DNA from: Clostridiales bacterium | GTDB lineage: Bacteria; Bacillota; Clostridia; Caldicoprobacterales; DTU083 | Direction of reading: 5' to 3' | Length of the DNA stretch: 64,000 bases | Assembly (NCBI GenBank): GCA_012839095.1 | Contig: DUOA01000086.1 | Coordinates: 1 to 64,000, forward strand | In this document: positions 6,784-55,648 of the stretch, in pieces | How positions within the stretch are numbered: position 1 is the first letter of the stretch | Layout: each line of letters starts with the position of its first letter | The notes under the pieces: generated by a model | What the model was told of the DNA's origin: nothing | The model's input: only the letters and a program-made list of their open reading frames with translations | Database searches by the model: none | Translations under genes and position numbers: made by a program

Positions 6784-7302
6784 TTATATCTCTTCACTTT
6801 GATTGAAATGTGTCAGGAACAATCTTACTACTATGACGTATATGGGTACCAGGATGAAATTGCCAATAATGCGGGCCGGCAGCAGGACAATGAATGCCTT
6901 TCCCATCATCATGCTAAGCCACAGGGTATTCAGGGTCAGGGAAGTGATGACTGTTGTAATGCCGATGGTTATTGCCAGGGACTGCCAGGTCCACTTTTTC
7001 CGGAACAGAAGACTCATCAATCCGGGCAGCAGTCCGGTAAGGGCGGACGACAGTGTAAAGCCGGGAAAATAGGGACCCATGGGGTTAAAGGGATATCCGA
7101 TTAAATCTGCCAATGCACCGGTAATAGCTCCGTATACAGGTCCCAGCATGATGCCGCTTAATATTACCGGGATTTCGCCAAAACCCAGACGTATGTTCTG
7201 CACTCCCCCAATAACGACCGTATAGCTGAAAAACCTTGTAAGAACAATGTTGAGTGCAATAAACATGCCGGCAAAGGCAACCCTTCTTGCTCTGTTTTTC
7301 AT
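6784..7302 (-). CDS. folT: ECF transporter S component, folate type
   Basis: Substrate-binding membrane subunit of an energy-coupling factor vitamin importer, here most likely for folates. The 172-aa protein has about five to six hydrophobic segments, the family motif of small residues near the N-terminus (RRVAFAGMFIALNIVLTRFF), and IRLGFGEIPVILSGIMLGP typical of the FolT family. The ECF module (T and A components) must be supplied from elsewhere; the CbiMQO genes in this window are a separate transporter. A THF-riboswitch-like leader precedes the gene, which strongly supports folate as substrate. The GGAGGTG ribosome site lies 10 bases before the ATG. Confidence 0.85.
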   Translation of the reverse strand: MKNRARRVAFAGMFIALNIVLTRFFSYTVVIGGVQNIRLGFGEIPVILSGIMLGPVYGAITGALADLIGYPFNPMGPYFPGFTLSSALTGLLPGLMSLLFRKKWTWQSLAITIGITTVITSLTLNTLWLSMMMGKAFIVLLPARIIGNFILVPIYVIVVRLFLTHFNQSEEI

Positions 7303-7377: not shown

Positions 7378-7478
7378 TGTGGCAGCGGATGCGGAAGGGT
7401 ACCGCAGGCTGTGAAAGCCTTTCGTTCAGGGGCAACCTCCCATCCCCTGACACTTTACGCACCATTCCTACTCTGCAC
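7378..7478 (-). promoter_or_regulatory. THF (folT-type) riboswitch
   Basis: On the minus strand the leader contains the conserved blocks of the tetrahydrofolate riboswitch in order: AGAGTAG, TGCGT, AAGTGT, ATGGGA, GTTG, AACGAA, TGCGGT and GCATCCGCT, with complementary variable stems between them (CAGGGG/CCCCTG and AGGCT/AGCCT). Downstream, a CTCC segment at 7350-7357 can pair either with the aptamer-proximal GGAGAG (7368-7376) or with the ribosome site region (7313-7325), which suggests control of translation. Recognition is by eye from the known folT motif. Confidence 0.88.
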
Positions 7479-42667: not shown

Positions 42668-43900
42668 ATGCTTAAAACCGACATACTGATAATACGGGAG
42701 CTGGCCAAACAGGCAGCAGAAGTTGCTGCACTTCCGGTGCAGGAAGAAAAACGCGCTTTGTGGCGGAAACTGAACAGCAAGCAGCCGGAGCGGCCTATGG
42801 TTATGATAGATCAGGTATGCTGGCATGAAATGAATGTTGACGATGAGCTTACCCTGAGGTGCCGGGATGAGGAACTTAGGGGCTGGGAATATTCTCTCAG
42901 GAAAACCCTGTATCAATGGCGGCATTTTCCCGGGGATATGGTAGTGGAGGATTTCGTCCGGGTACCCAAGGCTGTTGAAGGTTTGAATTTCGGTATTCAG
43001 GTTGAAGAGACGACTTTGATCACAGATGCATCCAGCGATGTTGTATCCCACTCCTATGTTAATCAGTTTGAAACCATGGATGATCTGGAGAAAATAAAGA
43101 TGCCGGTTGTAACCCATAACAGCAGGGAAACCGCCAGACGCATGGACCTGGCCGAGGAAATGTTCGGCGGTATACTAAAAATCCGGGAAGAAGGGGCGGT
43201 TCCATATGTATCTGTTTGGGATCCCCTTGCCACCTGGATGGGACCGGAAAACATATTGTACGGTTTCTTTGATAATCCGGAACTGATGCGTGCCATAGCA
43301 GAAAAAATGGTAAAAGGTTACAATTCCATGCTGGACCAGCTGGAAGACCAGGGACTGCTTTGTCATCCTCAGTCTTACATCCACTGTACAGGAGCCTGGA
43401 CGGATGAGCTGCCCGGAAGCGGCTTTGATCCGGCAAAGCCGACTACAAGGAACATATGGATGTATGGCCTGGCGCAGGTATTCTCAAGTGTTTCTCCGGC
43501 CATGTTTTATGAATATGAGATAGAGATGTGCAGGCCGCTTTTTGAACGGTTCGGGCTGGTTTATTACGGCTGCTGTGATCCGCTTGACGGCAAGATGAAT
43601 GAAGTCCGGGCTATTCCCAATCTTCGCAAGGTATCCATGAGCCCATGGGTGAACAAGGAGCGCGGAGCGGAGGAAATTGGAAAGGATTATGTATATTCCT
43701 GCAAGCCCAATCCTGCCCATCTTGCATCTGTTACCTTTGACGAAGACCTTGTAAGGCGCGATTTGATGGAGACAAAGAAGATTTGCGAGCAGTATGGCTG
43801 CCCGCTGGAATTCATCTTAAAGGACATAAGCACAGTTGCATATCAACCTCAGCGGCTCTGGCGCTGGGCAGAGATTGCCATGGAGGTCGCACAAAGCTGA
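42668..43900 (+). CDS. Uroporphyrinogen decarboxylase-family protein (methyltransferase-like)
   Basis: 410-aa TIM-barrel protein of the UroD/MtaA superfamily; clostridial members of this type are often corrinoid-linked methyltransferases rather than heme enzymes. Motifs include VSVWDPLATWMGPENILYG near residue 180, CHPQSYIHCTGAWTDELP near 238 and LVYYGCCDPLDGKM near 298, where Cys/His may bind zinc. No heme genes are nearby. GGAGGAG precedes the ATG. The methyltransferase reading is an inference from family habit, not proven here. Confidence 0.75.
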   Translation: MLKTDILIIRELAKQAAEVAALPVQEEKRALWRKLNSKQPERPMVMIDQVCWHEMNVDDELTLRCRDEELRGWEYSLRKTLYQWRHFPGDMVVEDFVRVPKAVEGLNFGIQVEETTLITDASSDVVSHSYVNQFETMDDLEKIKMPVVTHNSRETARRMDLAEEMFGGILKIREEGAVPYVSVWDPLATWMGPENILYGFFDNPELMRAIAEKMVKGYNSMLDQLEDQGLLCHPQSYIHCTGAWTDELPGSGFDPAKPTTRNIWMYGLAQVFSSVSPAMFYEYEIEMCRPLFERFGLVYYGCCDPLDGKMNEVRAIPNLRKVSMSPWVNKERGAEEIGKDYVYSCKPNPAHLASVTFDEDLVRRDLMETKKICEQYGCPLEFILKDISTVAYQPQRLWRWAEIAMEVAQS

Positions 43901-49528: not shown

Positions 49529-50089
49529 CTAAAGCCAGGTAAAAAACAGAATTCCAAGTATTGCGCTTATGATTATCATTAATGCAGGATGAATTTTCGC
49601 TTTCATGATTCCTATCAGGCTGATGGCGAAAATAGCTATGCTTTTCCAGCTGATATCCCTGAGCAGATCTTCCATAGCATCGGGATAGAGGGCATTTTTC
49701 AGAATGAGGAAGGTGGAGGAAGCGATAAGCCCGATCACAGCCGGCCTCAAACCTTTTAAAACACCCTGAACAATGGGGTGGTCCTTAAACTTAGTAAAGT
49801 ATTTGGCAACCAGCACTACTATTATGAAGGACGGAGTTATGACGCCCAGGGTTGCTGCTGCCGCCGCGGTGAGGCCCCCCTGTTGAATTCCTATAAAGGT
49901 GGCAGAATTTATGGCAAAGGGGCCGGGAGTCATCTCGGAAATGGCTATGATATCAATAACCCCCTCCAGGGTAAGCCAATTGCGCTGGGTAATCTCCTGG
50001 GTAATGAGAGGGATCATGGCATAGCCGCCCCCAATGGTAAACAGGCCTATTTTGGCAAAAACCAGAAAAAGTTCAATCATTATATGCAT
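49529..50089 (-). CDS. chrA: Chromate transporter half-protein, second gene
   Basis: Membrane protein of the CHR family, half-size (186 aa). Such proteins act in pairs. The conserved N-terminal FAKIGLFTIGGGYAMIPLI and EMTPGPFAINSATFIG are visible, with further hydrophobic segments to the end. The start shares its A with the previous gene's stop. The natural substrate in strict anaerobes is uncertain. Confidence 0.87.
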   Translation of the reverse strand: MHIMIELFLVFAKIGLFTIGGGYAMIPLITQEITQRNWLTLEGVIDIIAISEMTPGPFAINSATFIGIQQGGLTAAAAATLGVITPSFIIVVLVAKYFTKFKDHPIVQGVLKGLRPAVIGLIASSTFLILKNALYPDAMEDLLRDISWKSIAIFAISLIGIMKAKIHPALMIIISAILGILFFTWL

Positions 50090-50667
50090 CAGCTCTTCTC
50101 CTTTTTCTCAGCTTTTTTCAAAGAGCGGACTGAAACGGCAGTCAGCCCAAGTACACCGGACACAAGAAGTATGACAATGGCCGGTGCGCCGAATACTGTC
50201 AGTGCCAGAAAAGAGGCAATTGCCAGGGCCAGACCGTACCCATTCCTGATTCCGGTCTTTCCCAGCCTGAGTACAACGTGGAACATAAGAGCTGCGACAC
50301 CTGCCTGTATTCCATGAAATGCCTCATTTACATAGGGATAATCCTTAAAATTGTATAGAAACAGGGCAATAATGGATATTATTATATAGGATGGCAGTAC
50401 CACGCCCAGCGTGGCGGCAACTGCACCTGCCCAGCCGGCTACCCGGTACCCTACAAAGGTGGAGGAGTTTACCGCAATGACACCGGGAACTGACTGTACA
50501 ACCGCGAATATGTCGATGATTTCCTCTCTCTCTATCCAATGGTTTTTCTCTACTATTTCCCTTTCGATGTAGGGGATCATGGCATATCCGCCTCCAAAGG
50601 TAAAGGCGCCTATTCGAAAAAATACGGTGAAGAGTTTAAGAATTTTGCTTGGTAACTTTACATCCAT
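50089..50667 (-). CDS. chrA: Chromate transporter half-protein, first gene
   Basis: Half-size CHR-family membrane protein (192 aa), related to its downstream neighbour. The N-terminus has FFRIGAFTFGGGYAMIPYI followed by VQSVPGVIAVNSSTFVGY and the basic-rich loops of the family. It overlaps the next gene so the heterodimer is probably made in a fixed ratio. A promoter lies upstream at 50701-50729. Confidence 0.87.
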   Translation of the reverse strand: MDVKLPSKILKLFTVFFRIGAFTFGGGYAMIPYIEREIVEKNHWIEREEIIDIFAVVQSVPGVIAVNSSTFVGYRVAGWAGAVAATLGVVLPSYIIISIIALFLYNFKDYPYVNEAFHGIQAGVAALMFHVVLRLGKTGIRNGYGLALAIASFLALTVFGAPAIVILLVSGVLGLTAVSVRSLKKAEKKEKS

Positions 50668-50746: not shown

Positions 50747-50775
50747 TTGACATGACTGTACGTGATTAATACAAT
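50747..50775 (+). promoter_or_regulatory. Sigma-A promoter of the cobalt transport operon
   Basis: Consensus TTGACA (50747-50752) and TACAAT (50770-50775) with 17-base spacing. Confidence 0.8.
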
Positions 50776-50781
50776 GGAATC

Positions 50782-50804
50782 GTAAATGTAGATAATACAT
50801 TTAC
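50782..50804 (+). promoter_or_regulatory. Operator-like perfect inverted repeat before cbiM
   Basis: GTAAATGTA (50782-50790) and TACATTTAC (50796-50804) are exact complements around a 5-bp AT-rich centre. The repeat overlaps the expected start of transcription and lies just before the GAGGAGG ribosome site of cbiM. It fits a metal- or vitamin-responsive repressor; I cannot name the regulator. Confidence 0.7.
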
Positions 50805-50821
50805 ATGAGGAGGACAAAAAC

Positions 50822-51562
50822 ATGAGTCACATTCACTTGCCGGATGGTGTTATACCGCCTTTCTGGTGGATTACCGGCCTTATCTTATGCCTTGCCCTGC
50901 TTTGGATATTTGCCGGAAGAATTAAAAAAGATGAGGTCCGCCGAAAAATTCCCTTTGCCGGGGTAATAGGTGCCCTGATGCTGATCTTTATGTCTGTACC
51001 CCTCGGCATCCTGCCGGTGCATCTGAATCTGGCTGTGCTCTGCGGCATTCTGGCCGGTCCGGGTCTCGGTTTTGTTGCTGTATTTGCGGTCAACACAATT
51101 CTTGCCCTTATCGGGCATGGAGGGTTTACGGTAATAGGCCTTAATACCCTTCTGATGGGCGGTGAAGCCATACTGGGCTATTATATTTTCCGGGCTGCGT
51201 CCGGCAGACTGGGCAGTGCCTCCTCTGCTGTAACTGCCAATATTCTTGCCCTTCTTTTGTCAACTGTCCTTATGATATTGATTGTAGGAACATCTGTTGG
51301 TCTTGGGGAGGCTCTGCTCCCCCATGACCATACCCATGAATCGGTACATGCCGGTGAAGATCATATTGATGACAGGGAAAACAATAGTGAGTCCCATTCC
51401 GGGGAGATAAAGGATGCGAGATTTCTTTTCTTAACCGGCTGGACAGCAGTCATTGCAGTCATTCTTGCGGGCATATTGCTGGAATCACTGGTAACAGGGC
51501 TTATCGTAAGTTTCTTTTCAAAGGTCAGGCCGGATCTGCTGAAGCCGGCGGCGGAAGGGTAA
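50822..51562 (+). CDS. cbiM: Cobalt ECF transporter membrane component CbiM
   Basis: Substrate-binding membrane protein for Co2+ (or Ni2+). Family members bind the metal at the extreme N-terminus, here MSHIHLPDGV. About six hydrophobic segments follow; the loop near residues 165-195 is rich in His, Asp and Glu (HDHTHES and later HAGEDHIDD). GFTVIGLNTLLMGGEAILGY is a family block. 246 aa. No separate cbiN is present; cbiQ follows 13 bases later. Confidence 0.9.
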   Translation: MSHIHLPDGVIPPFWWITGLILCLALLWIFAGRIKKDEVRRKIPFAGVIGALMLIFMSVPLGILPVHLNLAVLCGILAGPGLGFVAVFAVNTILALIGHGGFTVIGLNTLLMGGEAILGYYIFRAASGRLGSASSAVTANILALLLSTVLMILIVGTSVGLGEALLPHDHTHESVHAGEDHIDDRENNSESHSGEIKDARFLFLTGWTAVIAVILAGILLESLVTGLIVSFFSKVRPDLLKPAAEG

Positions 51563-51575
51563 AGGAGAGAGATAA

Positions 51576-52289
51576 ATGCACATAGCCGCTATTGATCATA
51601 TGGCCAACAACGGTGACAGCTTTCTTCACAATGCCCGGCCCATCACCAAGGTTAGCATGGCACTCTTGTTTTTAGTAAGCCTGATTGTTACAAACCATAT
51701 ATTTAAGGCACTTATTTTACTGGCCATTCCCATTGCTCTGATACTTCTGTCCAGGGTGAATGTCAGGGAAATACTGCATCTGGCTGCATATCCACTTGTT
51801 TTCAGTATCCTCTTTGCACTTATCCGGATACAGCAATCATGGGTGGCAGGCCTGCTGGTCATGACCAAGGCTTTGGGAGCAGCACTTAATATGCTGCTTC
51901 TTATTGCAACCACACCCTATACGGATTTATTCGGTATTTTTTCCTATGTGCTGCCGGGGCCGATCATAGATGTATTTATTTTTACATACCGGTCGCTTTT
52001 TATTCTCCTGGACAAACTGGAGAACATGATGAAGAGCATCCGGCTCAGGGGTGGATTCCATCCTGTGAGAATTCTTTTTAATCTGAAAAATACAGCAGGG
52101 GCACTGGGAGTCATGACGATTCATGCTTTTGATATGAGCGAGAGACTTTATCGCATATACTCTCTCAGGGGGTACAAGGGGAAGATACCCCTTTCCCGTG
52201 AATGGGAACCGCTAAAGCCGGTGGACGGCTTCCTGCTGCTGTTTTCACTGATTGTACTGACAGGAGTGTTTATTCCATGGAACATCTGA
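51576..52289 (+). CDS. cbiQ: Cobalt ECF transporter T component CbiQ
   Basis: Coupling membrane subunit linking CbiM to the ATPase, 237 aa with about five hydrophobic segments. It has RLRGGFHPVRILF and RIYSLRGYKGK, equivalents of the two Arg-containing coupling helices that touch the ATPase in T components. The start has AAGGAGAG in front. It overlaps cbiO by 13 bases. Confidence 0.9.
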   Translation: MHIAAIDHMANNGDSFLHNARPITKVSMALLFLVSLIVTNHIFKALILLAIPIALILLSRVNVREILHLAAYPLVFSILFALIRIQQSWVAGLLVMTKALGAALNMLLLIATTPYTDLFGIFSYVLPGPIIDVFIFTYRSLFILLDKLENMMKSIRLRGGFHPVRILFNLKNTAGALGVMTIHAFDMSERLYRIYSLRGYKGKIPLSREWEPLKPVDGFLLLFSLIVLTGVFIPWNI

Positions 52290-53140
52290 TCAAGGTAAAA
52301 TGTATCCGGCATGTATATCCGGATAAAACCGAGGTGGACATATGCGGCCTGGATTTTGTAGTCCGCCCCGGAGAAAGGGTGGTGATCCTGGGTCCCAACG
52401 GGGCCGGCAAGACCACCCTGCTGTCCCACATACTTGGCCTGCTGTCGCCTGTGGAGGGGCAGGTTGAAGTGATGGGCATGAAGCCGGACAAGGATTTCAA
52501 CAAGGTACGGAAGCATATAGGGATTGTCTTTCAGAATGTGGATGAGCAGATAATCGGCCCCAGGGTATATGACGACATTGCCTTTACTCTGAGGAACGAG
52601 GGCTTTTCCAGGCAGGAAACGGAAGACAGGGTGAGCGAAGTGGCAGCCATGCTGGGACTGGAAGATATACTGGAAAAAATACCCCATTACCTCAGCGGAG
52701 GACAGAAGAAAAAGGTTGCCCTGGCAGGTGCGGTTTCCATGATGCCGGAGATCCTTATACTGGATGAACCATTTGACGGGCTGGATCCCAAATCCAAATC
52801 GGAAATGATAGACATGCTCAACCGGCTGAACGGAGAAAAGGGAATTACACTGGTTATAACAACCCACGACATAAACATAGTGCCCAGGATTGCCGATCTG
52901 ATATATGTAATCAATAAAGGGAAGATAGTTACCAAGGGCAGTCCTGCAGATGTTTTCGCTGAGGTGGAGATGCTTCGTGAAGCCAATCTGGAGCCGCCTA
53001 TACTGACTGATTTATTTGATCGTCTTGCTAAAAAGGGGTACCCGCTGACGGCGCCGGCCAGCATAGACAATGCCCTGGAACAGCTGGAAATGATTTTAGG
53101 AGGGCAGGTGCAGGATGAAGAGAGAATTGTTTCAGGATGA
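52277..53140 (+). CDS. cbiO: Cobalt ECF transporter ATPase CbiO
   Basis: ABC ATPase of the cobalt ECF transporter, about 287 aa. Walker A ILGPNGAGKTT near residue 38, Q-loop in IGIVFQNVDEQ, signature LSGGQKKKVAL, Walker B ILILDEPFDGLD and H-loop ITTHD occur in order. The ATG at 52277 follows AGGAGTG; longer in-frame readings lie within cbiQ. Its end overlaps the methionine synthase gene by 26 bases, which ties cobalt supply to a B12 enzyme. Confidence 0.92.
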   Translation: MEHLIKVKCIRHVYPDKTEVDICGLDFVVRPGERVVILGPNGAGKTTLLSHILGLLSPVEGQVEVMGMKPDKDFNKVRKHIGIVFQNVDEQIIGPRVYDDIAFTLRNEGFSRQETEDRVSEVAAMLGLEDILEKIPHYLSGGQKKKVALAGAVSMMPEILILDEPFDGLDPKSKSEMIDMLNRLNGEKGITLVITTHDINIVPRIADLIYVINKGKIVTKGSPADVFAEVEMLREANLEPPILTDLFDRLAKKGYPLTAPASIDNALEQLEMILGGQVQDEERIVSG

Positions 53141-54779
53141 CAAGCTGGTCTTCTTTGACGGAGCCATGGGCACCATGCTGCAGGAAGCGGGCTGGAGTGA
53201 CGGCCGGCCTCCGGAAATATGCAATCTGGCACGACCGGAGCTGGTGGAATCCATTCACCGGGCTTATGCTGAGAGCGGTGCAGATGTTATTACAGCCAAT
53301 ACTTTTGGCGCAAGTCCAATGAAGATTCTTCCACTGGGCTATTCAGCGGAAGAAGTGATAAAAAGGGCAGTGGCCCTTGCCAAAAGAGCTGCGGGCAGCC
53401 GTCCGGTTGCCTTGGATATCGGCCCTCTCGGACAATTGATGGCACCTATGGGAACCTTGTCCTTTAATGATGCATATGAACAGTTTGCTGTTCAGGTCAA
53501 AGCCGGCAGAGAAGCAGGTGCAGACTTAATCCTGATAGAGACCATGTCGGATATATACGAGGCAAAGGCTGCTGTGCTGGCAGCAAAGGAGCACAGCGAA
53601 CTTCCGGTAGTGTGTTCTCTGACCTTTCAGAAGAATGGAAGAACCCTGATGGGAAATGATGCCCTGACGGCGGTAACCGTGCTGGAGGGGCTGAAAGTTG
53701 ATGCAATCGGTGTTAATTGTTCTCTCGGACCGGAGGAGCTGCTCCCTGTTATTGAAAAGCTGACAAAGTCTGCCCATGTCCCCATACTGGTACAGGCCAA
53801 TGCCGGACTGCCCGAGCTTAAGGGCGGCCGGGTCGTTTATCCTTTAAAACCCGATGCTTTTGCTCAGGCGGCAAAAAAGATGGTATCCATGGGCGTTAAG
53901 ATGCTGGGCGGCTGCTGCGGGACCAGTCCCGGCTTTATAAGAGCTCTGCGCGGCCATCTGGAAGGGGAGAGCTGGAGAAAGCCCGGCAACCCTGAAAAAA
54001 CAACCCTTGCATCATCCAGACAGACCCTGCTCCTGGATGAAGGTATATTTATAGTAGGACAGCGAATCAATCCCACCGGTCGGCAGAACCTCCAAAATGC
54101 GCTTCTTAGCGGTAATTTGGACTTGCTGTATGAGGAGGCACTAATGCAAAAGCAGGCAGGGGCTGACATATTGGATATCAATGTCCATACGGGCAGGGGA
54201 AATGAAGCAGAACTCATGGTTGAGGCAGTGGAGTATATTCAGTCCATGATACCGATTCCACTTCAGTTGGACAGCGCAAACAGTAAAGTATTGGAAGCCG
54301 GTGCAAGAGTGATGAATGGAAAGCCTGTGCTGAACTCTGTTAACGGTTCCAGGCTTTCCCTGGAGCAGATACTTCCCATTGCCCGCAGATATGGTGCCTG
54401 TCTTATCGGCATGACTCTGGATGATAAGGGCATCCCGGACAGGGCGGAAGACAGGCTGGCTCTTGCAGAAAAAATTCTGGAAGCATGCCTGAACTACGGC
54501 TTAAAAAAAGCAGATCTGATAATCGACTGCATTGCGGAAAGCAAATCGGCTAAACCCGAAGCTGCTTCTGAGACTCTGAAGGCTGTACGGCTGATTAAAA
54601 AGCATTTGGGTCTTAAAACCATTCTGGGCATCAGCAACATATCCTATGGCATGAAAAACAGATCATCCCTTAATGCAGAATTTATGGCCCTGGCCCTGGA
54701 TGCGGGGCTGGATCTGGCTATAGTGGATCCGCTGGACAGGGCAGTTGCGAATCTCATAAAGACCAAAAATGCAAGGTAA
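53115..54779 (+). CDS. metH: Methionine synthase N-terminal half (homocysteine and methyl-folate domains)
   Basis: Transfers methyl groups in the B12-dependent methionine cycle. The homocysteine-binding barrel (about residues 1-290) has FFDGAMGTMLQEAG and the zinc cysteines in GVNCSLG and GGCCGTSP. The pterin/methyl-THF-binding barrel (about 305-554) has VGQRINPTGRQ, DILDINVH, PLQLDSA and GISNISYGM. The cobalamin-binding and reactivation domains of full-length MetH (about 1200 aa) are absent, so a separate corrinoid protein is expected elsewhere. It is translationally overlapped with cbiO, a cobalt importer. An alternative is a dedicated corrinoid methyltransferase, but the two-barrel layout favours split MetH. 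Confidence 0.85.
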   Translation: MKRELFQDDKLVFFDGAMGTMLQEAGWSDGRPPEICNLARPELVESIHRAYAESGADVITANTFGASPMKILPLGYSAEEVIKRAVALAKRAAGSRPVALDIGPLGQLMAPMGTLSFNDAYEQFAVQVKAGREAGADLILIETMSDIYEAKAAVLAAKEHSELPVVCSLTFQKNGRTLMGNDALTAVTVLEGLKVDAIGVNCSLGPEELLPVIEKLTKSAHVPILVQANAGLPELKGGRVVYPLKPDAFAQAAKKMVSMGVKMLGGCCGTSPGFIRALRGHLEGESWRKPGNPEKTTLASSRQTLLLDEGIFIVGQRINPTGRQNLQNALLSGNLDLLYEEALMQKQAGADILDINVHTGRGNEAELMVEAVEYIQSMIPIPLQLDSANSKVLEAGARVMNGKPVLNSVNGSRLSLEQILPIARRYGACLIGMTLDDKGIPDRAEDRLALAEKILEACLNYGLKKADLIIDCIAESKSAKPEAASETLKAVRLIKKHLGLKTILGISNISYGMKNRSSLNAEFMALALDAGLDLAIVDPLDRAVANLIKTKNAR

Positions 54780-54979: not shown

Positions 54980-55648
54980 ATGGACATTGTATTACTGGGC
55001 CCTCCCGGCTCGGGGAAGGGAACCCAGGGAAACTTGCTGGCTGAGCCTCTGAATGCAAAGCCCTTATCTACAGGTGATTTGTTTCGCTCGATCCTGAAAG
55101 ATGATTCCCATCCCCTGTACTCCAAGGTACAGGTGATTAATGAAGGAAAACTGGTATCTGATGATGTTGTGAACAAGGTAGTGGAATACGGGATAAATAA
55201 GCCGGAAAACAGGAACGGCATCATATTCGACGGTTATCCCCGCACCATTGCCCAGGCCGAAAAACTGGATGAAATGCTTGCTGCAAGGGGCAGGAAGATT
55301 GATCTTGTCATCGAACTGAATGTAACCCAGGAGGTTCTGTTTTACCGTATTTTAGGCAGAAGGGTCTGCCCCGGCTGCAAGCGGATTTTTCATGAAAGGG
55401 ACGGGTTGGACGTCTGTCCCCATTGCGGACTTGAGCTTATTCGCCGGGAGGATGACAATGAACAAACCATTCTTCAGCGGTTGGAGGAGTATAGAGCAAA
55501 AACAGCCCCTCTGCAGGACTACTATGAAAACAGCGGTGCTGTCATTCTCGACATGGAAATAAACGATGCCTCCCTGACAGCCCAGGAAGTTAATCAGCAG
55601 ATTATGGACATGCTGAAGCAAAGCCGGGTATTGCAGGAGAAGTTATGA
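54980..55648 (+). CDS. adk: Adenylate kinase
   Basis: Converts AMP and ATP to two ADP. The P-loop GPPGSGKGTQ is at the N-terminus; the AMP site STGDLFRSIL follows; DGYPRT is typical. The LID domain carries four zinc cysteines (CPGCKRIF and CPHC), as in Gram-positive zinc-type Adk. 222 aa. The ATG at 54980 follows AAGGAGG; an ATG at 54914 has no support. It overlaps the next gene by 4 bases. Confidence 0.95.
   Translation: MDIVLLGPPGSGKGTQGNLLAEPLNAKPLSTGDLFRSILKDDSHPLYSKVQVINEGKLVSDDVVNKVVEYGINKPENRNGIIFDGYPRTIAQAEKLDEMLAARGRKIDLVIELNVTQEVLFYRILGRRVCPGCKRIFHERDGLDVCPHCGLELIRREDDNEQTILQRLEEYRAKTAPLQDYYENSGAVILDMEINDASLTAQEVNQQIMDMLKQSRVLQEKL

Follow-up and report, generated by a model that had tools for sequence, protein, structure and literature searches.

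Results

The 64,000-nucleotide stretch analysed here (the window) lies on contig DUOA01000086.1 of a Clostridiales genome (G000; 2.74 Mb in 169 contigs, 96% complete with 2.4% contamination). Positions 50822-54779 hold a compact array of four genes, cbiM-cbiQ-cbiO-metH, which encode the components of an energy-coupling factor (ECF) importer for transition metals followed by a methionine synthase reduced to two domains (Table 1). The first-pass annotation of this DNA had described cbiM, cbiQ and cbiO with a two-domain MetH fragment in overlapping frames, and both the open reading frame calls and Pfam agree. The gap between cbiM and cbiQ is 13 nt, cbiQ and cbiO overlap by 13 nt, and cbiO and metH by 26 nt, with the sequence AGGAGGG at 53098-53104 ahead of the metH-like start. 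The same gene order is common to six genomes of the window's family, representing five genera; in the five relatives the cbiO/metH junction varies, depending on the start codon, between a short overlap and a ~100-nt gap, and the overlap is thus not conserved.

In the 554-residue MetH-like protein Pfam finds neither a B12-binding nor an activation domain, as the first-pass annotation had maintained. Both of its domains can be aligned with Thermotoga MetH over almost their whole length (residues 8-552, E 2e-100), and Cys202, Cys267 and Cys268, which we take to be the zinc ligands, are invariant in 9 of 9 aligned sequences. The frame is intact in 17 genomes. The protein scores 317 bits against the metH equivalog model, the cut-off of which is 1011. 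A second homocysteine methyltransferase was not found in the window's genome, where no search for MetE was made: the single S-methyl_trans place is the split protein itself, and the full-length MetH that would have spoken against the first-pass view is not seen elsewhere.

Table 1. Positions of the array, its putative control elements and its neighbours in the window
Feature	Position	Strand	Basis
sigma-70-like promoter TTGACA-N17-TACAAT before cbiM	50747..50775	+	consensus match only, 11/12
operator-like perfect palindrome GTAAATGTA-GATAA-TACATTTAC, 9-5-9	50782..50804	+	directly after cbiM -10 box
cbiM-like ECF S component, 246 aa	50822..51562	+	Pfam CbiM 7e-36
cbiQ-like ECF T component, 237 aa	51576..52289	+	Pfam CbiQ 2e-18
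cbiO-like ECF ATPase, 287 aa from ATG 52277	52277..53140	+	Pfam ABC_tran 8e-31
two-domain split methionine synthase, 554 residues	53115..54779	+	S-methyl_trans 3e-72 (PF02574, 244 bits); Pterin_bind 5e-24 (PF00809, 86 bits)
adk, right boundary of the metH insertion; next after cbiO in relatives without metH	54980..55648	+	Pfam and gene order of relatives
divergent chromate-transporter-family gene, left neighbour common to relatives	50089..50667	-	Pfam and gene order of relatives

An enzyme of this form would need its corrinoid and its reactivation from elsewhere. The first-pass annotation had called for a corrinoid protein and a RamA-like activator encoded apart from the enzyme, and the genome search turned up one of each, both on contig C90. 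The stand-alone corrinoid protein, with cap and B12 domains (PF02607, PF02310), is encoded at C90:23289-23924, behind the gene of a PocR-AraC regulator. About 3.6 kb downstream lies the gene (C90:27521-29320) of a 599-aa RACo/RamA-like protein, whose N-terminal stretch reads as ferredoxin-like; no further RACo_C_ter place was detected in the genome. B12-binding places number three: the C90 corrinoid protein, a protein that reads as a radical-SAM enzyme of the B12 type, and one weak sub-cut-off match. The corrinoid protein is nearest to the models of MtgC/MtbC and other methyltransferase-type carriers, in every case at a score below the cut-off, and to PDB entry 1y80. The genome's single PF02965 place is in a MetH-activation-like protein of 233-248 residues on contig C32.

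The surroundings of the corrinoid gene in relatives are consistent with this assignment. In G007, of the sister family, the gene of a PocR regulator is followed by those of the corrinoid protein, the split MetH, a membrane protein and a glycosyltransferase, and the window's genome has the same row of corrinoid gene, membrane protein and glycosyltransferase minus metH. In the one-contig genome G016, which gave no match in the MetH search, genes for RamA, PocR, the corrinoid protein and the activation-like protein follow one another in this order; the RamA-like gene lies in two overlapping frames (L215:3415-5287), possibly through a frameshift. Among 30 genomes of the order, all 19 with a split MetH (known in G006 and G009 from contig-edge pieces only) carry a stand-alone orthologue of the C90 corrinoid protein, with an identity of at least 65%.

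The split form may have arisen from a fused enzyme. Among the best 80 of 569 GTDB loci with the two domains, a corrinoid-protein-like segment follows in frame in 76; those without it are L061 and L134 (both of this order), L127, and L075, where the contig ends. On a MetH tree of 55 rows (30 of the 80 GTDB loci and 25 from the search of the order, the G006 and G009 fragments being left out), the split form needs two changes, one for a 17-row clade of this order (support of 99 in the Shimodaira-Hasegawa-like approximate likelihood ratio test, SH-aLRT) and one for L127. When the tree without L127 is rooted on the 900-residue forms, the split clade sits among fused enzymes, the fork that nests it having a modest support of 81. 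The L127 protein (L127:7001-8520, an Oscillospiraceae record) is an independent two-domain MetH that groups with the fused enzymes. We also considered that the corrinoid protein might be the detached MetH domain, which is disfavoured: 28 stand-alone rows (27 genomes, since the window's row and L150 are the same sequence) separate from 16 MetH domains with an SH-aLRT of 100, at a point where long branches meet. The row L179 was dropped as too short. Because the two forms separate on the tree, the corrinoid protein seems not to be derived from the lost domain.

The position of metH behind the importer can be traced in the same way. In G013, G014, G018 and G019, which belong to the window's family, adk follows cbiO with no metH between; metH is likewise missing from this place in the outgroup family f4, in G029 of which other genes intervene. 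An importer tree built on five linked proteins from 14 genomes (without G010, in which cbiM is cut, and without the f2 genomes) needs three metH changes, the simplest account being one insertion and two losses, and the importer was retained where metH was lost. G010 is an exception, with metH after a sugar-kinase fragment on a short contig, and in family f2 importer and metH lie apart. CbiM is present in 22 of the 30 genomes, among them G013, G014 and G018, where the MetH search gave no homocysteine-domain match, and a split MetH without CbiM is found in six f3 genomes (G020-G025). Each is therefore retained in genomes that lack the other. The neighbour on the other side of cbiM also varies: families f2 and f4 have a divergent protein of ~1300 residues there (L204:7257-11219, L206:2336-6238, L208:1962-5873), helicase-like by Pfam in L204, whereas f1 mostly has chromate-transporter genes.

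We then ask how the array may be expressed. On the + strand no terminator-like site was found between cbiO and metH or between metH and adk; the same scan gave weak terminator-like sites within cbiM and cbiQ, and a 9/12 promoter-like site lies inside cbiO (52734-52761). The promoter scan returned 18 sites vs 13.8 in shuffles (standard deviation 4.3) and the terminator scan 10 vs 7.7 (standard deviation 3.4), and neither is thus enriched. As the scans are no richer than the shuffles, it is plausible, and no more than that, that one promoter drives the four genes; from the layout, co-transcription of the importer genes with metH seems likely.

A candidate operator lies at the start of this unit. 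Directly 3' of the -10 element of the cbiM promoter, a palindromic box, TGCAAAYNATWTGCA, is present in 15 of 19 genomes of families f1, f2 and f4, as counted with a strict pattern over the 200 bases ahead of cbiM. In three random sets of the same first-order composition the box did not occur. Every distinct site printed from 264 records (2.02 Mb) lies ahead of cbiM, a statement that holds for these records, which include overlaps and many of which were chosen for cbiM. The strict box is absent from G000, G008, G015 and G026. The palindrome of the window (Table 1), at the corresponding place, is a diverged version of the order-wide box; the chance figure for it is after the fact, the search pattern having been derived from the site itself.

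The relatives' box resembles the nickel Nur box, of which it matches 11 of 12 letters in four genomes; matches of 10-11 letters were obtained in G009, G010, G027 and G028 and in G001, G003, G005 and G007. Other Fur-family boxes share the AT core. Upstream regions that lack the box reach 8-9 letters, so that a match of 9 is uninformative and only 10-11 letters carry weight. According to one paper, in the sections available to us, Nur is known only from Streptomyces. In view of this scope and of the shared core, the resemblance favours nickel with a force weaker than proof.

The importer itself was examined for signs of its metal. The CbiM-like protein has the N terminus MSHIHLPDG, the conserved His67 and a His-rich loop. 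A phmmer search of the PDB with this sequence alone gave no hit to a metal transporter at E values up to 10, whereas a profile of 18 relatives gave such hits; by fold the nearest structures are those of NikM and CbiM (Foldseek E 0.007-0.02, probability 1.00). In the alignment, His2 and His67 of NikM, which we take to be metal ligands, have His5 and His67 as their counterparts. Ahead of the aligned Met1 stands an extra MSH, invariant in 18 of 18 sequences, and the N-terminal ligand set therefore probably differs from that of NikM/CbiM. The nearest NCBIfam models are those of the cobalt transporter CbiM, at 54 bits against a cut-off of 205. Fold and sequence do not separate the cobalt from the nickel members. 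Pfam finds no PDGLE part in the window's CbiM, and the genome has no second CbiM. Besides the MSHIH type, genomes of genus g10 (sister family) carry another CbiM, which in G001 is fused to PDGLE (L180:1072-2178). Neither cbiN nor NikN or NikK/NikL was found in the operon, genome-wide searches for them not having been made. Thus, of a CbiMNQO system the CbiM, CbiQ and CbiO components are present, and CbiN, B12 synthesis genes and a cobalamin riboswitch are missing from the context, while of a NikM-type system the fold and the His2/His67 positions are present and NikN or NikK/NikL is missing from the operon.

If cobalt were imported for de novo B12 synthesis, genes for the corrin ring should accompany the importer. 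PF00590, which presumably covers the corrin-ring methylases, matches 1-3 places in each of the 30 genomes from the order, all of RsmI-like or MazG-fused size (the MazG part was confirmed by Pfam in the window's genome only), and beyond these no corrin-ring methylase was seen in any of the 30. In G027, the sole genome with three places, two of these are fragments of a single frame. Imported cobalt would therefore have no known route into B12, and we rejected this role for the importer. At the gathering score no cobalamin riboswitch occurs in the whole window, hence none at cbiM. The single cobalamin riboswitch of the genome is on contig C85, before two genes that likely serve corrinoid salvage, one for a DUF4430 protein and the other for a small membrane protein. 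This locus (L217:6237-7608), with a small membrane protein that has no Pfam match, is a candidate corrinoid importer; in the literature collection searched, no paper joins DUF4430, a cobalamin riboswitch and ECF.

The number of potential users of the corrinoid protein may be large. The window's genome has 22 UroD-family places vs a single corrinoid protein, and nine of the 22 carry the motif H[STN]CG. A 410-residue protein encoded in the window (42668-43900, +) has no Pfam match; its identity of 39% to a weak member of the UroD family on C123 marks it as belonging to a diverged UroD-like family. On contig C93 an operon (L038:8808-14903) encodes MTHFR-like, two ETF-like, AcsE-like, formate-channel-like and formate-tetrahydrofolate-ligase-like proteins, the flavoprotein, channel and ligase names being read from sequence. 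No acetyl-CoA synthase gene was recognised in the C93 open reading frame list, which covers part of the contig. Elsewhere in the window, on the - strand, a tetrahydrofolate riboswitch (7381-7477, 81 bits) precedes the gene of another ECF S component (6787-7302), presumably of a folate importer.

Discussion

The explanation that we favour, with somewhat better than even confidence, is that an ECF metal importer, more likely for nickel, has been joined by a once-inserted two-domain metH, whose product works with the corrinoid protein and the activator encoded on C90 and uses salvaged corrinoid. The importer would be of CbiMQO type, without an N subunit in the operon and under its own operator. 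In the family ancestor a two-domain metH would have been inserted once between cbiO and adk, and in this position it is probably transcribed together with the importer genes. The product would unite the homocysteine-accepting and the methyl-tetrahydrofolate halves of a split MetH. Through the pterin domain, the methyl group of methyl-tetrahydrofolate would pass to the cobalt carried by the C90 corrinoid protein, from which the zinc domain would hand it on to homocysteine. The ATP-driven RACo/RamA-like reductase, perhaps aided by the C32 activation-like protein, would reset cobalt that has become oxidised. The corrinoid would be salvaged, not made. What the sequence shows directly is the domain content, the single copies, the gene orders, the conserved box and the lack of corrin methylases; protein partnership, transcript and metal we infer.

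Several observations weigh against parts of this reading. The window's palindrome matches at best 8 of 12 letters of the Nur box and is not itself a Nur box; its half-sites are two bases closer than those of the relatives' box; G008, G015 and G026 have no box; and, apart from G009 and G010, the f1 genomes that have the box match just 9 of 12 Nur letters, which the box-less G008 equals. The PF00590 control, although positive in 14 of 14 known genomes, is not proof that every corrin methylase is detected, and the Foldseek E for CbiM is never below 0.001. Of the 11 genomes without a split MetH, 8 likewise carry an orthologue of the corrinoid protein at 60% identity or more (in G018, G028 and G029 the matches are only weak or MetH-borne); the protein therefore has another job, and its co-occurrence with the split enzyme is weak evidence. 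Its gene is not beside metH in the window's genome, G001 or G002, and is ~3 kb away in G003. The PF02965 match on C32 barely clears its cut-off (25.5 vs 25 bits), and the poor structure model obtained for this protein (mean predicted local distance difference test score of 54) was not used. Finally, as the searches did not extend to MetE, the genome may hold a methionine synthase besides the split enzyme.

The identity of the metal bears on a quite different explanation, in which the operon imports cobalt for cobalamin synthesis and thereby couples supply to the cobalamin-using MetH. The first-pass annotation took the context to identify a cobalt importer, and the shared gene order in six genomes, the names of the nearest (though far sub-cut-off) NCBIfam models and the failure of fold and sequence to tell the two metals apart would all suit it. 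The comparison with relatives does not support that claim. Corrin methylases were unseen throughout the order, the genome's only cobalamin riboswitch lies away from the window, importer and metH are separable, the importer persisting where metH was lost, and the operator resembles a nickel-type Fur-family box in some relatives. The operon also lacks CbiN, which with CbiM forms the minimum for cobalt transport according to the available part of PMC7689651. In the accessible portion of Zhang 2009, whose table partly rests on gene context, no organism combines a cobalt transporter with a lack of B12 synthesis. We consider cobalt supply for synthesis unlikely, and nickel the more likely cargo. Still less probable, in our view, is that the 554-residue protein methylates another thiol or is a vestige, as its score below the equivalog cut-off and the two losses of metH in the family might suggest: the three invariant cysteines, the alignment of both domains with Thermotoga MetH, the intact frame in 17 genomes and its standing as the only homocysteine methyltransferase found in the genome all speak for a methionine synthase.

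A further possibility concerns the source of the methyl group. The C90 corrinoid protein may be a shared hub for UroD-family and AcsE-like methyltransferases, from whose methyl pool the split MetH draws, with or without methyl-tetrahydrofolate. The excess of UroD-family places over corrinoid proteins, the motif in nine of them, the likeness of the corrinoid protein to methyltransferase-type carriers and its tree group apart from MetH domains, the PocR-AraC regulator ahead of its gene, and the retention of that gene in genomes without MetH all point this way, as do the precedents of MtgC in Ruegeria and of the mlp gene clusters, so far as their published accounts were available. Against this, none of the 22 UroD places is on C90; the five UroD proteins scanned all fell below the MtaA/CmuA-type cut-offs (best 119 of 244 bits); and 13 places lack the motif, so that some may be unrelated to corrinoids. 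We regard the shared hub as a tentative idea, somewhat short of an even chance. Extended to the order, it becomes more speculative: the methionine synthase would have dropped its own B12 domain and joined a shared corrinoid carrier that also serves UroD methyltransferases, and in one family it would have come under the promoter of a metal-responsive, probably nickel, importer. If this were true, methyl groups from plant or sulfur compounds would reach methionine via one carrier, and methionine synthesis would be tied to metal status though the cell makes no B12.

The preferred reading, that of a metal importer joined by a split metH with partners on C90, points to a clostridial route to split methionine synthase and names a candidate corrinoid protein and activator; it also makes the idea of a shared carrier testable in anaerobes. 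A CbiMQO-MetH neighbourhood is not proof of cobalt transport, given that the importer here occurs without corrin-ring synthesis and with its own operator.

Comparison with known systems

A structural counterpart of the split enzyme is the solved 566-residue chain of Thermotoga maritima MetH (PDB 1q7m and others; we take 1q7m to be from this species), which has the same two N-terminal barrels; its native protein presumably continues with a B12 part. The importer shares its fold and the aligned His2 and His67 with the NikM/CbiM S components (PDB 4m58, 4m5b, 5x3x), from which it differs by the extra MSH of CbiM and by an operon without CbiN or NikN. The type I mlp gene clusters, for which methyl recycling into methionine has been proposed (Kountz and Balskus 2023, PMC10418091, as far as its text was available), likewise combine UroD-superfamily methyltransferases, a corrinoid protein and a Ram/RACE protein, whereas the UroD genes here are scattered, none being on the contig of the corrinoid gene. 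In the part of PMC12478193 at hand, MtgC/MtgD of Ruegeria pomeroyi are common to glycine betaine demethylation and methionine synthesis; there, as here, one corrinoid protein is suspected in both processes, but the Ruegeria case involves MttB-type methyltransferases and mutants, and ours UroD-type candidates in Clostridia known from sequence alone. Another parallel is the split methionine synthase of Phaeobacter inhibens with its RamA-like DUF4445 protein (Price 2018, PMC5764234, in the portion accessible to us): in both, the corrinoid function resides on a separate methyltransferase-type chain and reactivation is RamA-like. In Phaeobacter the homocysteine and pterin domains are separate genes of a three-part set, whereas here they are fused, in another phylum. 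The clostridial arrangement is thus a variant of an already known split methionine synthase.

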